NCBI GenBank assembly: GCA_024683955.1
Contig: JAIKXS010000065.1
Location: forward strand, 95,111-159,110
Source of the DNA: Desulfovibrio sp.
GTDB taxonomy: Bacteria; Desulfobacterota; Desulfovibrionia; Desulfovibrionales; Desulfovibrionaceae
Reading direction: 5' to 3'
DNA length: 64,000 nt
A program made the position numbers and the translations under genes. The notes under the pieces were generated by a model. It did no database searches, was not told where the DNA came from, and was given only the letters and a program-made list of their open reading frames with translations. How positions within the stretch are numbered: position 1 is the stretch's first letter; every line of letters begins with the position of its first letter. This document shows, in pieces, positions 44,351-52,042 of this stretch.

Positions 44351-45564
44351 GCCTGAATGAGACACCAAGCGGCGAACGCCCTCATATCGCCTTTTTTGGC
44401 AAAACCAATGTGGGAAAATCCTCCCTCATCAACGCCGTGACCAATCAGGATCTCGCCATTGTTTCTTCCGTACGGGGCACAACGACCGACCCGGTGCAGA
44501 AGGCCATGGAAATCCTGCCTCTTGGGCCCGTCCTTCTCATTGATACGGCGGGTATTGACGATCAAAGCATTCTCGGCGAAGCACGAATGGCAAAAACGGA
44601 GGCAGTGCTCGCAAAAACGGACCTGGCAGTCCTTGTTCGCGAGGCGGGGACGGATCTTTCTGAAGAGGAAAGATCAATCCTCTCCCGCATAACGGGCAAC
44701 GGAATACCCTTTCTCACGGTCTTCAACAAAGCCGACGTCCTTTCCGACGAACGCCTTTCGGAGGAACAGCGCAAGGCAGACGACAAGACACTTTTCGTAA
44801 GCGCCAGGGATAAGAAAAATATTGATACACTTCGTCTCAAAATGGCAGCTCTCCTGCAAACGGAAGATGCCTGTTCGCCGGTGCTTGTCCGTGACCTCGT
44901 TCCGAAGGGCGGGGTTGCGGTTCTCGTTGTTCCAATAGACTCGGCAGCACCCAAGGGACGCCTCATTCTCCCGCAGCAGCAGGCCATCCGTGACCTGCTT
45001 GAGGGCCACGCGATGAGCCTTGTGACGGACGTTGACGAGCTTCCGGGAGCCCTTGACCTCCTGACCCCCTCCCTTGTTATCTGCGACAGCCAGGTTTTCG
45101 ACCGCGTAAGCGCCATGACGCCCGCCTCAATTCCCCTGACATCCTTTTCAATACTCATGGCACGCTATAAGGGTTATCTCAGCGAAGCAACGGAAGGTCT
45201 TTCCGCTCTTGAACGCCTTACGGACGGAAGCCGCATTCTCATGGCCGAAGGCTGTACCCATCACAGACAGTGCGAGGATATCGGAACGGTCAAAATTCCA
45301 CGCTGGCTCAAGGCCCACACGGGAAAGGACCTTGTCTTTGACGCCTCATCGGGCGGAAGTTTTCCGGAAAACCTCACGGACTACGATCTGGTGGTCCTTT
45401 GCGGCGGCTGCATGCTGAACGCCCGCGCCATGCAGGCGAGGATGCGCAGAGCCCGCGAAGCGGGGGTTCCGGTCACCAATTACGGCATTCTCATTGCCGC
45501 CATGAGGGGCATTCTCTCCCGTGCGACAAGCTGCCTGACCCAGGGGATACCATGCTCAAAATAG
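44347..45564 (+). CDS. hydF: [FeFe] hydrogenase maturation GTPase HydF
   Basis: A 405-residue GTPase and scaffold that receives the [2Fe] precursor and delivers it to HydA. The N-terminal GTPase domain has P-loop GKTNVGKSS (about 18-26), RGTTTDP, DTAGIDD and NKAD. The C-terminal [4Fe-4S]-binding domain shows EGCTHHRQCEDIG, with His and Cys, and later VVLCGGCMLN. The 3' end overlaps the start of the first NifH-like gene by 13 bases. This tight coupling to nitrogenase-like genes is unusual and central to the cluster. Confidence 0.93.
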   Translation: MSLNETPSGERPHIAFFGKTNVGKSSLINAVTNQDLAIVSSVRGTTTDPVQKAMEILPLGPVLLIDTAGIDDQSILGEARMAKTEAVLAKTDLAVLVREAGTDLSEEERSILSRITGNGIPFLTVFNKADVLSDERLSEEQRKADDKTLFVSARDKKNIDTLRLKMAALLQTEDACSPVLVRDLVPKGGVAVLVVPIDSAAPKGRLILPQQQAIRDLLEGHAMSLVTDVDELPGALDLLTPSLVICDSQVFDRVSAMTPASIPLTSFSILMARYKGYLSEATEGLSALERLTDGSRILMAEGCTHHRQCEDIGTVKIPRWLKAHTGKDLVFDASSGGSFPENLTDYDLVVLCGGCMLNARAMQARMRRAREAGVPVTNYGILIAAMRGILSRATSCLTQGIPCSK

Positions 45565-49619: not shown

Positions 49620-52042
49620 ACACGGCATTTTTCATGGAGGCAAAGGCCCTTGCTGCTCTTGAGACAGAGAAGTGGCCGAGTGACCTTGTCTCGTCAAGGC
49701 ACCTTATCTACAGTTCCCCTGCCGCACTGTCCTTCCACTCGCCGGGGGCCCAGGGCTTTGGTGTCAAACGGGCGGCGCTCTCCCTTCCGAACTCCCATAT
49801 GCTTCTCTTCTCGCCGGGCTGCTGCGGGCGCAACACCTCGGCACTCGGCGGCGTTGACAGCTACTACGGAAGACGCATGCACCACCTTCTCCTTGATGAG
49901 ACAGACATCGTCACGGGACGGTATCTCACGCGTGTTGAGGAGGCAGCCTACGCCGTCATACGGGAAAGCAATCCCGAAGTGCTGATACTTCTTAGCACCT
50001 GTGTTGACGCGTTGCTGGGGACGGATGTTGAAAGGCTCTCTGCGCGCATCAGGGAAAAAAGCGGCATTCCGGTTCTTTCGGCAACCATGTACGCCCTGAC
50101 CAGGGAGGGCCATATTCCGCCGATGGTTGGCGTGCGAAGAGCCATGTACTCCCTTCTCGAAAAGCGGAAAAAAAACTCACGGGCCATGAACATCCTGGGT
50201 TTTTTCACCCACCTGCACGACGACTGCGAGCTCTACGCTCTTCTTCGGGAGATCGGGATCAGAACCATCAATGAGCTTGGCCGCATGCGCAGTATGGCTG
50301 AATTTTCCGGCATGGCCGAGGCAAATTTCAACCTGGTGCTCAATCCCGAGTCACGCTATGCGGCCTCCTATTTTCTTGAAAACCTCGGCATTCCCTCCAT
50401 AGAGCTCAGCCGAACATTTGAGATAGAAAAGATCCACGCCCAGTACGAAATGCTTGGTTCTGTCCTAGAGACCCGCATTCCCGACACCCCCTACCATGAA
50501 GAGGCTCTTGAGGCAGTTGAAACAGCAGCCCCCCTTCTCTCTGACCTTTCCTTTGCCGTCGGGGAAACCATAAGCGCCGAGCCCTTCTCTCTTGCGCTCG
50601 CTCTTCTCCGCATGGGGGCCAGAGTTCCGGAAATCTTTGCCGAACCCCACGAGGGTGTACGTCCTCTTCTCAAGGCAATAGCAGCCCTGTCACCAACAAC
50701 CCGCATCTACAGCAATCTCTCGCCCTCCATGAGATTCTATACGCCGAATCCCGGGGAAATCGACATGGCCATAGGACGCGACGCCCTGTTCTACCATAAA
50801 AAAACACCGGGTTTTTCCTTCTGTTCACAAACGGAACCCTTTGGCTACAAGGGACTGCTTTCCCTCCTTGGGGCCATCAACAAGGCCCACGGGACACCGC
50901 GTACGGAAAAGGTCAGGACGGGAAGCTTCCTCGGAACGGCGGAAGGAAAAATCGAGGGACGAGCAACCCGCTCCCCGGCAAAGATCAAGGGACTTCTCAC
51001 CCATCTCTCTCCCTTTGCACCGGATCAGTCAGGCGTTGTCTCAGTGCTCTTCGGCCTTGGGGGAACAACGGTCATATGTGATGCGGGAGGGTGTACGGGC
51101 AATATCTGCGGATTTGATGAACCGCGGTTTGGCGAAGAAGATTCCGCCCTTTTCAGCGCGGGTCTGCGCGATATGGACGCAATCCTTGGACGGGACGAAG
51201 AGCTGTTAAAAAAGACCGCGGCCTGTATCGACCCCCAAAAGAGCGCCTTTCTGGCCCTTGTCGGGACCCCCGTTCCCGCTGTCATCGCCACCGATTTTCA
51301 GGGACTTGCCAATATGGCTGAAAAACGCCTCGGCCTTCCGGTCCTTCCCTTTGAAACAACCGGGACCCGCTACTATGATGTGGGCGCGTCAAAGGCGTAT
51401 CTCGCGGTCCTCGAACGCTTTGCGAACGAAGGTGGGGCAAAGGAGACCTCCATCGGCATTCTTGGAGCAACACCCTTCGACCTTTCGGACAGGGAAGAAG
51501 AGGCACTCACAACAAAGCTTGCCAGAAGCGGTTTTACCGACCCCCTCTACCTTGGTCGCAAGGGGGGGCTTGAGGCTGTACGGCGCGCCTCGGAAGCCTC
51601 AAGGAACATCGTGCTTTCGCCGTCGGGCATTATGCCGGCCCTCTACCTTCAGGAGCGTTTCGGCACTCCCTTTGAGTGCGTTTTTCCTGTCCTTCCGGAG
51701 ATCGACATTCCAAAAACAAGCAAAAAAATACTCATCATCCACCAGCAGGTCTTTGCCGCAAGTCTTCGAAACGCCCTCCGTGCAGCAGGAACGGAGGCGG
51801 AAATCCACGTAGCAAGTTTCTTCCTTATGCATAAAAGCCTTTTGGAGCCGCATGACCATCGACTGACAGACGAGTATGGGTTTGTGCAGTGCCTTCAGGA
51901 AGGCGGATACGACATCGTGATGGGGGATAGCGATATCTCGAGAGCCCTCCGCACGGAAGACCTTGCCAGCTTACAGTGGATCGACATTCCCCATACCGCA
52001 CTTTCAGGTCGCGCTTATCCGACGGGAGACGCTCATGGCTAG
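49616..52042 (+). CDS. Fused nitrogenase component 1-like protein (D-like plus K-like halves)
   Basis: An 808-residue protein made of two component 1-like halves. The N-half (about 1-440) shows FSPGCCGRNTS (Cys69/Cys70) and LLSTCVDALLGTDVE (Cys129), matching the D-type cysteine segments. The C-half (about 455-808) has CDAGGCTGNICGF (Cys488, Cys493, Cys498) and GLRDMDAILGRDE, but at the second K-type cysteine segment it reads VGTPVPAVIATDF with no Cys. A single-chain D-K fusion is rare; it resembles in principle the NifEN fusions reported in some diazotrophs. Possible roles are an assembly scaffold paired with the split D/K proteins, or a second enzyme. It overlaps hypF by eight bases. Confidence 0.78.
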   Translation: MNTAFFMEAKALAALETEKWPSDLVSSRHLIYSSPAALSFHSPGAQGFGVKRAALSLPNSHMLLFSPGCCGRNTSALGGVDSYYGRRMHHLLLDETDIVTGRYLTRVEEAAYAVIRESNPEVLILLSTCVDALLGTDVERLSARIREKSGIPVLSATMYALTREGHIPPMVGVRRAMYSLLEKRKKNSRAMNILGFFTHLHDDCELYALLREIGIRTINELGRMRSMAEFSGMAEANFNLVLNPESRYAASYFLENLGIPSIELSRTFEIEKIHAQYEMLGSVLETRIPDTPYHEEALEAVETAAPLLSDLSFAVGETISAEPFSLALALLRMGARVPEIFAEPHEGVRPLLKAIAALSPTTRIYSNLSPSMRFYTPNPGEIDMAIGRDALFYHKKTPGFSFCSQTEPFGYKGLLSLLGAINKAHGTPRTEKVRTGSFLGTAEGKIEGRATRSPAKIKGLLTHLSPFAPDQSGVVSVLFGLGGTTVICDAGGCTGNICGFDEPRFGEEDSALFSAGLRDMDAILGRDEELLKKTAACIDPQKSAFLALVGTPVPAVIATDFQGLANMAEKRLGLPVLPFETTGTRYYDVGASKAYLAVLERFANEGGAKETSIGILGATPFDLSDREEEALTTKLARSGFTDPLYLGRKGGLEAVRRASEASRNIVLSPSGIMPALYLQERFGTPFECVFPVLPEIDIPKTSKKILIIHQQVFAASLRNALRAAGTEAEIHVASFFLMHKSLLEPHDHRLTDEYGFVQCLQEGGYDIVMGDSDISRALRTEDLASLQWIDIPHTALSGRAYPTGDAHG

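Follow-up and report, generated by a model that had tools for sequence, protein, structure and literature searches.

Within a 64,000-nucleotide stretch of Desulfovibrio sp. DNA (contig JAIKXS010000065.1, hereafter the window), five consecutive genes at 45552-52042 encode a nitrogenase-like cassette, H1-D1-K1-H2-DK2, and its relation to the hydrogenase maturase HydG is the subject here. The genes follow one another on one strand in the order hydA-hydB-hydE-hydF, then the cassette, then hypF-hypC-hypD-hypE (Table 1). The cassette consists of two modules, H1-D1-K1 beside hydE/hydF (module 1) and H2-DK2 beside hypF (module 2); all five open reading frames (ORFs) are intact, with overlaps of 4 to 28 bases between neighbours. 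An earlier preliminary description, made from the letters of the DNA, had proposed these five genes, and the ORFs and the PF00142 and PF00148 matches confirmed them, as did the P-loop and both [4Fe-4S] cysteines found in H1 and H2. It had also named hydE/hydF and hypF as flanks, which held, and had overlooked hydA and hydB upstream as well as hypC, hypD and hypE downstream. The flanking hydE, hydF, hypF, hypD and hypE all score above their model cut-offs; HypF is complete in its parts and HypE ends in Cys.

Table 1. Genes of the window around the nitrogenase-like cassette (positions in the window; scores of family models).
Feature	Coordinates	Strand	Evidence
hydA, [FeFe]-hydrogenase group A catalytic subunit, likely client	41268..42521	+	TIGR02512 486.7 bits (cut-off 405.95); PF02906
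hydB, [FeFe]-hydrogenase small subunit	42533..42910	+	PF02256 57 bits (cut-off 24)
hydE, radical SAM maturase	43301..44350	+	TIGR03956 405.9 bits (cut-off 254.6)
hydF, maturation GTPase	44347..45564	+	TIGR03918 532.8 bits (cut-off 325.55)
H1, NifH-like reductase, module 1, 253 aa	45552..46313	+	PF00142 E 1.3e-74
D1, NifD/E-like subunit, module 1, 448 aa	46310..47656	+	PF00148 E 9.7e-15
K1, NifK/N-like subunit, module 1, 386 aa	47653..48813	+	PF00148 E 5.6e-29
H2, NifH-like reductase, module 2, 277 aa	48786..49619	+	PF00142 E 4.3e-85
DK2, fused D-like and K-like protein, module 2, 808 aa	49616..52042	+	PF00148 E 2.1e-43, two stretches
hypF, carbamoyltransferase	52035..54365 (start inferred from match)	+	TIGR00143 736.1 bits (cut-off 466.1); all HypF domains
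hypC, iron-carrying chaperone	54415..54633	+	PF01455 72.9 bits (cut-off 28.5)
hypD, scaffold for Fe(CN)2CO	54679..55776 (putative start)	+	TIGR00075 395.1 bits; PF01924
hypE, C-terminal Cys	56746..57753 (ATG inferred from match; ORF opens 56500)	+	TIGR02124 418.1 bits, match from ORF residue 87

The distribution of the cassette was evaluated by a scan for DK2 relatives with one genome per species, which returned 408 stretches, the best 80 of which were kept as loci; by record title these come from Clostridium, Lachnospiraceae, Coriobacteria and relatives, a Lentisphaeria and a Desulfovibrionaceae genome. Among loci with enough flank, 70 of 77 have a NifH-like gene directly upstream of the DK2 relative. 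Downstream, HypF begins within the first 600 bases in 72 of 74 loci, and all loci with sufficient flank have HypD at a distance of at most 4.5 kb (66 of 66) and HypE at a distance of at most 6 kb (64 of 64). This regularity shows that the neighbourhood is not due to chance, which answers the neighbourhood survey proposed in the preliminary description. In the 45 full-flank loci, D1 was found in 36 and HydE or HydF in 25. Clustering of the ORFs of 82 loci, with ORFs under 70 amino acids left out, showed HypC as a recurrent neighbour in 29 loci and a TM1266-type [FeFe]-hydrogenase regulator in 22, the family model having been run on one such protein (locus L151). Among 120 genomes of the window's class, strong DK2 matches occurred only in the window's genome (G000) and in two congeners, G014 and G106. 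Both display the order hydA-hydB-hydE-hydF-H1-D1-K1-H2-D2-K2-hypF-hypD-hypE, with DK2 split in two genes; hypC was not searched for there.

In the available part of PMC12752695, HydG is described as the first enzyme of H-cluster assembly, which uses tyrosine to form an Fe(II)(Cys)(CN)(CO)2 synthon; HydE then reduces and joins two synthons, and HydF carries the product. In the window's genome (92.8% complete), the best match to the HydG model reached 197.8 bits, against a cut-off of 312.15, and the protein was found to be ThiH (448.7 bits). HydG and HydF were searched genome-wide in 80 genomes: 34 of the genus, namely those listed from the sample (18 further unmatched genomes of the sample were left out), and the genomes of 46 of the 80 loci, which were our own choice, mostly for long flanks and as named isolates. 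With the line for canonical HydG set at 425 bits, drawn after the gap from 425 to 339 bits had been seen, canonical HydG was found in 19 of the 31 congeners without the cassette, in 0 of the 3 with it and in 2 of the 46 locus genomes. HydF above cut-off was present in exactly those 19 congeners, in all 3 cassette congeners and in 46 of 46 locus genomes; within the genus, HydF-positive genomes carried canonical HydG in 19/19 cases without the cassette and in 0/3 with it (Fisher p = 6.5e-4). At the curated cut-off (312), HydG matches rose to 25 of the 80 genomes, comprising 22 of the 31 congeners and, among the 49 cassette genomes, C. drakei, C. thailandense and G014. In the congeners G004, G008 and G012, a HydG-like paralog was the only match and HydF was lacking. 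G000 and G106 gave ThiH-level matches only, and C. ljungdahlii (G132) gave no more than 68 bits against the HydG cut-off of 312. Assembly gaps were rejected as the general cause of missing HydG, since G014 and G106, two of the three cassette congeners, are reported 100% complete without canonical HydG.

HydG was likewise evaluated in the class of Anaerobutyricum hallii, in a sample of 245 genomes not corrected for descent. HydF was found in 166 genomes, HydG in 156 and both in 151. Full-strength DK2 profile matches were found in 7 of the 245, all of them HydF-positive and HydG-negative, whereas the other HydF-positive genomes carried HydG in 151 of 159 cases (p = 1e-8, uncorrected for descent). 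Weaker D/K matches were obtained in three HydG-negative genomes (G234, G307 and G392), in three HydG-positive ones (G237, G313 and G344) and in G306, which lacks HydF. The 15 HydF-positive, HydG-negative genomes comprise seven with the full cassette, three with module 1 (adjoining hydE in G392 and G234 and a TM1266-type regulator in G307), G239, where an assembly gap is the cause because HydG is cut by the contig end, G264, also at a contig end, where it may be, G222 and G348, with weaker, probably partial HydF matches, and G325. An ABC transporter lies near the module-1-only loci L148, L149 and L151 (assigned to the FecCD type by Pfam in L148 and by inspection in the other two), which perhaps form a third, transporter-linked variant. 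Five of the 245 genomes (G179, G294, G333, G342 and G353) have a HydG match above cut-off and no HydF at E 1e-45, which may reflect assembly gaps or another use of HydG.

The exchange is also visible at the hydrogenase locus itself. In four HydG-bearing congeners, HydA, HydB, HydE, HydF and HydG lie within about 6 kb, and the place taken there by HydE, HydF and HydG is occupied in the window by HydE-HydF-cassette-HypFCDE. The HydA of these congeners is 71-79% identical to that of the window, compared with 39-43% for HydE (partial alignments) and 42-46% for HydF. In the HydE tree, 19/19 cassette HydE fell on one side (support 0.72), together with the module-1 HydE of L148 and L149 and the HydE of the HydG-less G264 and G325. 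In the HydF tree, 30/30 cassette HydF fell on one side (0.66), with those of L148 and L145 and with L121, L147 and L175 from HydG genomes. The window's HydE and HydF grouped, with modest support, with cassette HydE and HydF of other phyla. The HypD tree separated 77/77 cassette HypD from six of HydG-bearing Clostridia (0.88), in a set containing no non-cassette Desulfovibrio HypD. Because HydA similarity is high, HydE and HydF are divergent and the trees agree, the hydrogenase appears native, with an imported maturation set, as far as sequence comparison can tell. At the thresholds used, only a K to R and an I to L exchange separate 19 cassette HydE from 8 HydG-linked HydE; this near-identity of conserved residues fits an unchanged HydE substrate, so that the cassette should deliver an equivalent synthon. 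The search for group-specific residues in HydE and HydF led nowhere.

The usual client of HypFCDE is a [NiFe]-hydrogenase. The product of HypCDEF is Fe(CN)2CO (PMC9431212, available part). No match to the [NiFe] large subunit (PF00374) was obtained in 35 of 46 cassette genomes, and HypB was below cut-off in 24 of the 46. Service to [NiFe]-hydrogenase as the whole role of HypFCDE was rejected on the former count. HypB was found together with a weak PF00374 match in the window's genome, in G014 and in G106, and the larger [NiFe] subunit, present in all 31 congeners searched, was unmatched in these three genomes. The window's genome encodes an Ech-like [NiFe] large subunit (L124 719-1804, G000:C80) of 361 amino acids with both Cys pairs, as found in Ech hydrogenase; its nearest NCBIfam model was NuoD, below cut-off. 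HypB, in some cases as tandem pairs, also occurs in cassette genomes without any [NiFe] large-subunit match (G130, G136, G138, G142, G155 and others).

The cassette proteins were compared with the known nitrogenase-like families. Neither reductase reached the cut-off of the NifH equivalog (H1 258.0 and H2 290.4 bits; cut-off 394.35), BchL (179.8 and 203.3; 345.15), BchX (169.8 and 183.5; 331.2) or CfbC (258.6 and 298.0; 402) models. The cassette proteins scored at most 66.5 with the BchN and BchB models, and DK2 scored 20 with the CfbD model (cut-off 268.4). Placement in the nitrogenase, Bch or Cfb groups, which the preliminary description had named as a refuting outcome, is thus not supported by these scores. 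For methylthio-alkane reductase (Mar), K1 and DK2 matched 9fmg_A weakly, and the D1 model tied with Mar chains. By alignment, the P-cluster-type cysteines alpha-C88, alpha-C154 and beta-C95 are retained, no Cys aligns with alpha-C62, beta-C70 or beta-C153, so the set falls short of the six cysteines of the NifDK P-cluster, and the FeMo-cofactor ligand alpha-Cys275 is replaced by His in D1 and by Asn in D2. Cys58 and Cys118 of D1 were conserved in 60/60 loci, and Cys70, Cys129 and Cys493 of DK2 in 82/82. A tree of 138 sequences gave two reductase clades, both apart from NifH and BchL, with 41/41 of the reductases before D1 in one and 91/92 of those before a D2-like gene in the other, the latter (H2) clade also containing sets from outside the cassette. 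This agrees with the earlier suggestion of two duplicated modules, each with its own reductase, and since each reductase has its own clade, the duplication is old.

Other D-K-like sets of the family (L094-L101) were about 26-31% identical to DK2, and their NifH proteins, of which four were compared, form a sister branch of the H2 group. An H-D-K set on plasmid pTS1 of Treponema saccharophilum (L129 12016-18312) lies between ABC transporter genes, with a NifH 54% identical to H2 and no hydrogenase gene within the stretch. A D-K-like sequence 32% identical to DK2 was found in an unverified 8.5-kb 'Bacteriophage sp.' record from human faeces (L184, MT836848.1), which is probably bacterial DNA. 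When the whole genome was searched with PF00148, K1 and DK2 were the only proteins listed; D1 was missed, so a weak extra member could escape the search too. In G014 and G106 hypD and hypE adjoin each other, whereas in the window about 970 bases devoid of a clear gene (55777-56745) lie between them; the two ends of this gap, perhaps a decayed mobile element, are marked by imperfect 15-base inverted repeats (55737-55751 and 56693-56707). A promoter and terminator scan, with 5 promoter-like signals against 8.0 in shuffles and 30 terminator-like signals against 21.1, led nowhere, and the same applies to the Rfam scan, which returned one tRNA.

These results led to the proposal that the two modules and HypFCDE bypass HydG in H-cluster assembly, to which a probability of roughly 0.7 is given; the replacement rests on genomics, and the chemistry is put forward conditionally. 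The genomic basis is that HydE and HydF are kept and canonical HydG is missing in nearly every cassette genome searched, the cassette occurring with HypFCDE, and often with HydE/HydF, in Desulfovibrionaceae, Clostridia, Coriobacteria and one Lentisphaeria genome. Support comes from the exchange of HydG in the genus, the class sample and the locus genomes, together with HypFCDE lacking their usual client; the kept Fe-protein motifs with the three P-cluster-type cysteines, and the TM1266-type regulator as neighbour, also count in its favour. In some gut bacteria and acetogens, the reductase modules and HypFCDE likely make the CO- and CN-bearing iron in the stead of HydG. With somewhat less confidence, although still on the favourable side of even, this would be a second route to the H-cluster, independent of HydG, in which nitrogenase-type complexes and HypFCDE make such iron and HydE and HydF finish it. 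A link to hydrogenase cofactor assembly had been offered in the preliminary description as a conjecture; it gains much strength from the absence of HydG, which had been overlooked there, and from the HypFCDE neighbours. The link itself had been in print since 2012 (PMC3464626).

Between Fe(CN)2CO and the HydG synthon, one CN is exchanged for one CO and the iron is in a different state. The chemistry of CO2, CO and CN suits nitrogenase-type reductases, and the proposed mechanism arises from these two points. HypF and HypE would convert carbamoyl phosphate to cyanide, to be loaded on iron held by HypC-HypD. Module 2 would carry out an ATP-dependent reduction supplying the CO ligand, for which CO2 to CO is the favoured chemistry, or would reset the CN:CO ratio. 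Module 1 would reduce or hold the unit, like the NifEN scaffold, and hand an Fe(CN)(CO)2-type synthon to HydE, with the usual HydE, HydF and HydA steps next. This division of roles was suggested by the position of module 2 by HypFCDE and of module 1 by HydEF, and the assignment of steps to one module or the other is the least certain part of the proposal.

Several observations weigh against it. C. thailandense and C. drakei have both the cassette and HydG, and G325 has neither. The prior prediction that all 15 HydF-positive, HydG-negative genomes of the class sample would carry DK2 was borne out in 7, with weaker D/K matches in 3 and none in 5. The genome-wide counts use HydF, HydA not having been searched genome by genome. 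HypB is present in 22 of the 46 cassette genomes, and the window's HypFCDE may also serve the Ech-like [NiFe]-hydrogenase. HypD, whose count was chosen as a test of the proposed mechanism and gave a partly contrary result, occurs in 30 of the 151 genomes with HydF and HydG, and no HypD match was found in the draft genomes G234, G307 and G392, so that Hyp-made cyanide cannot be the whole story in these three. The same genomes, HydF-positive and HydG-negative with module 1, favour a variant of the proposal, its odds overlapping with those of the proposal, in which module 1 alone substitutes for HydG, while module 2 and HypFCDE provide ligands in addition; this variant is considered doubtful, since the three genomes are drafts and the other seven HydG-less genomes of the sample have the full cassette.

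G014 has a HydG-like paralog above the curated cut-off (324-326 bits), which also counts against the bypass. This radical SAM protein (L128 787-2799, G014:C69) is longer and carries C-x2-C-x22-C behind a membrane-like N-terminal part. It relates to a rival explanation, in which the CO/CN unit would come from a HydG-like radical SAM protein that has escaped recognition and the cassette would have a different or accessory role; a radical SAM candidate of roughly 450 amino acids with an atypical C-terminal Cys motif has been proposed in several acetogens (PMC9431212, available part). The G014 paralog is unlikely to be the maturase, because the same type is the sole match in several congeners without HydF, and the low scores of G000, G106 and C. 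ljungdahlii given above make the explanation as a whole improbable. A further step down is the possibility that a [NiFe]-hydrogenase, or some other metal site, is the target of HypFCDE and the cassette, with HydE/HydF scavenging free CO and CN so that HydG is dispensable. The HypB and Ech-like subunit of the window's genome agree with it, as does the in vitro activation of about 1% by HydE and HydF without HydG that is cited in PMC9431212. However, most cassette genomes lack the [NiFe] match, the cassette tracks HydG loss in HydF-positive genomes, and congeners with [NiFe]-hydrogenases and without the cassette keep HydG. Least probable of all, the modules could form an independent reductase, rather than maturases, that acts on an outside substrate and is fed by H2 metabolism, as related H-D-K sets adjoining FecCD-type or iron ABC transporters might suggest, but HypF, HypD and HypE nearly always follow DK2 and the cassette occurs where HydG is missing.

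If the HydG bypass is true, it would explain HydE, HydF and [FeFe]-hydrogenases without HydG in C. ljungdahlii and other acetogens, a gap left in PMC9431212. The nitrogenase superfamily would then build the metal site of another enzyme, a hydrogenase active site arising by nitrogenase-like catalysis. Additionally, the Hyp and Hyd pathways would be tied together, and a new maturase set would become available for producing hydrogenases in other hosts. No paper joining a nitrogenase-like cassette with missing HydG was found by title or abstract in a search covering few subscription papers.

Among known systems, NifEN, the nitrogenase cofactor scaffold, stands apart at 14% identity and ties with DPOR, Mar, Vnf and Anf chains, so the fold does not point to NifEN in particular. 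The likeness to the HydEFG system (PMC12752695, available part) lies in HydE and HydF above cut-off with HydA upstream, and the difference in the absence of HydG, the cassette and HypFCDE occupying the locus. With the HypABCDEF system of [NiFe] maturation, the window shares HypF, HypC, HypD and HypE, the last with its C-terminal Cys, and the difference lies in the unmatched usual client and the low HypB scores (35 and 24 of 46 cassette genomes, respectively). Di Leonardo et al. (2022, PMC9431212) reported, in the part available, Clostridium acetogens without HydG and with HypCDEF without HypAB, for which no straightforward explanation was given; C. ljungdahlii and C. carboxidivorans were without HydG both there and here, and C. 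ljungdahlii had HypCDEF without HypB in both. For C. carboxidivorans the paper lists a single HypF and duplicate HypC, HypD and HypE, numbers that might agree with a separate set for each pathway. The closest precedent is that of Dos Santos et al. (2012, PMC3464626), who described two closely linked H-E-N-like copies adjoining hydrogenase maturation genes in Coprococcus catus and other Firmicutes, the D-like subunit carrying two Cys (alpha-C88 and alpha-C154) and the K-like subunit one (beta-C95), and proposed in one sentence a role in metallocluster assembly. By sequence and neighbourhood comparison, the window's cassette has the same Cys pattern, linked copies and hydrogenase maturation neighbours. 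The present cassette extends further, to Desulfovibrionaceae, Coriobacteria and a Lentisphaeria genome, and the available part of the 2012 paper names neither missing HydG nor HypFCDE. The maturation neighbourhood (2012) and the HydG-less acetogens (2022) were already known, and what would be new is the link between the cassette and HydG.

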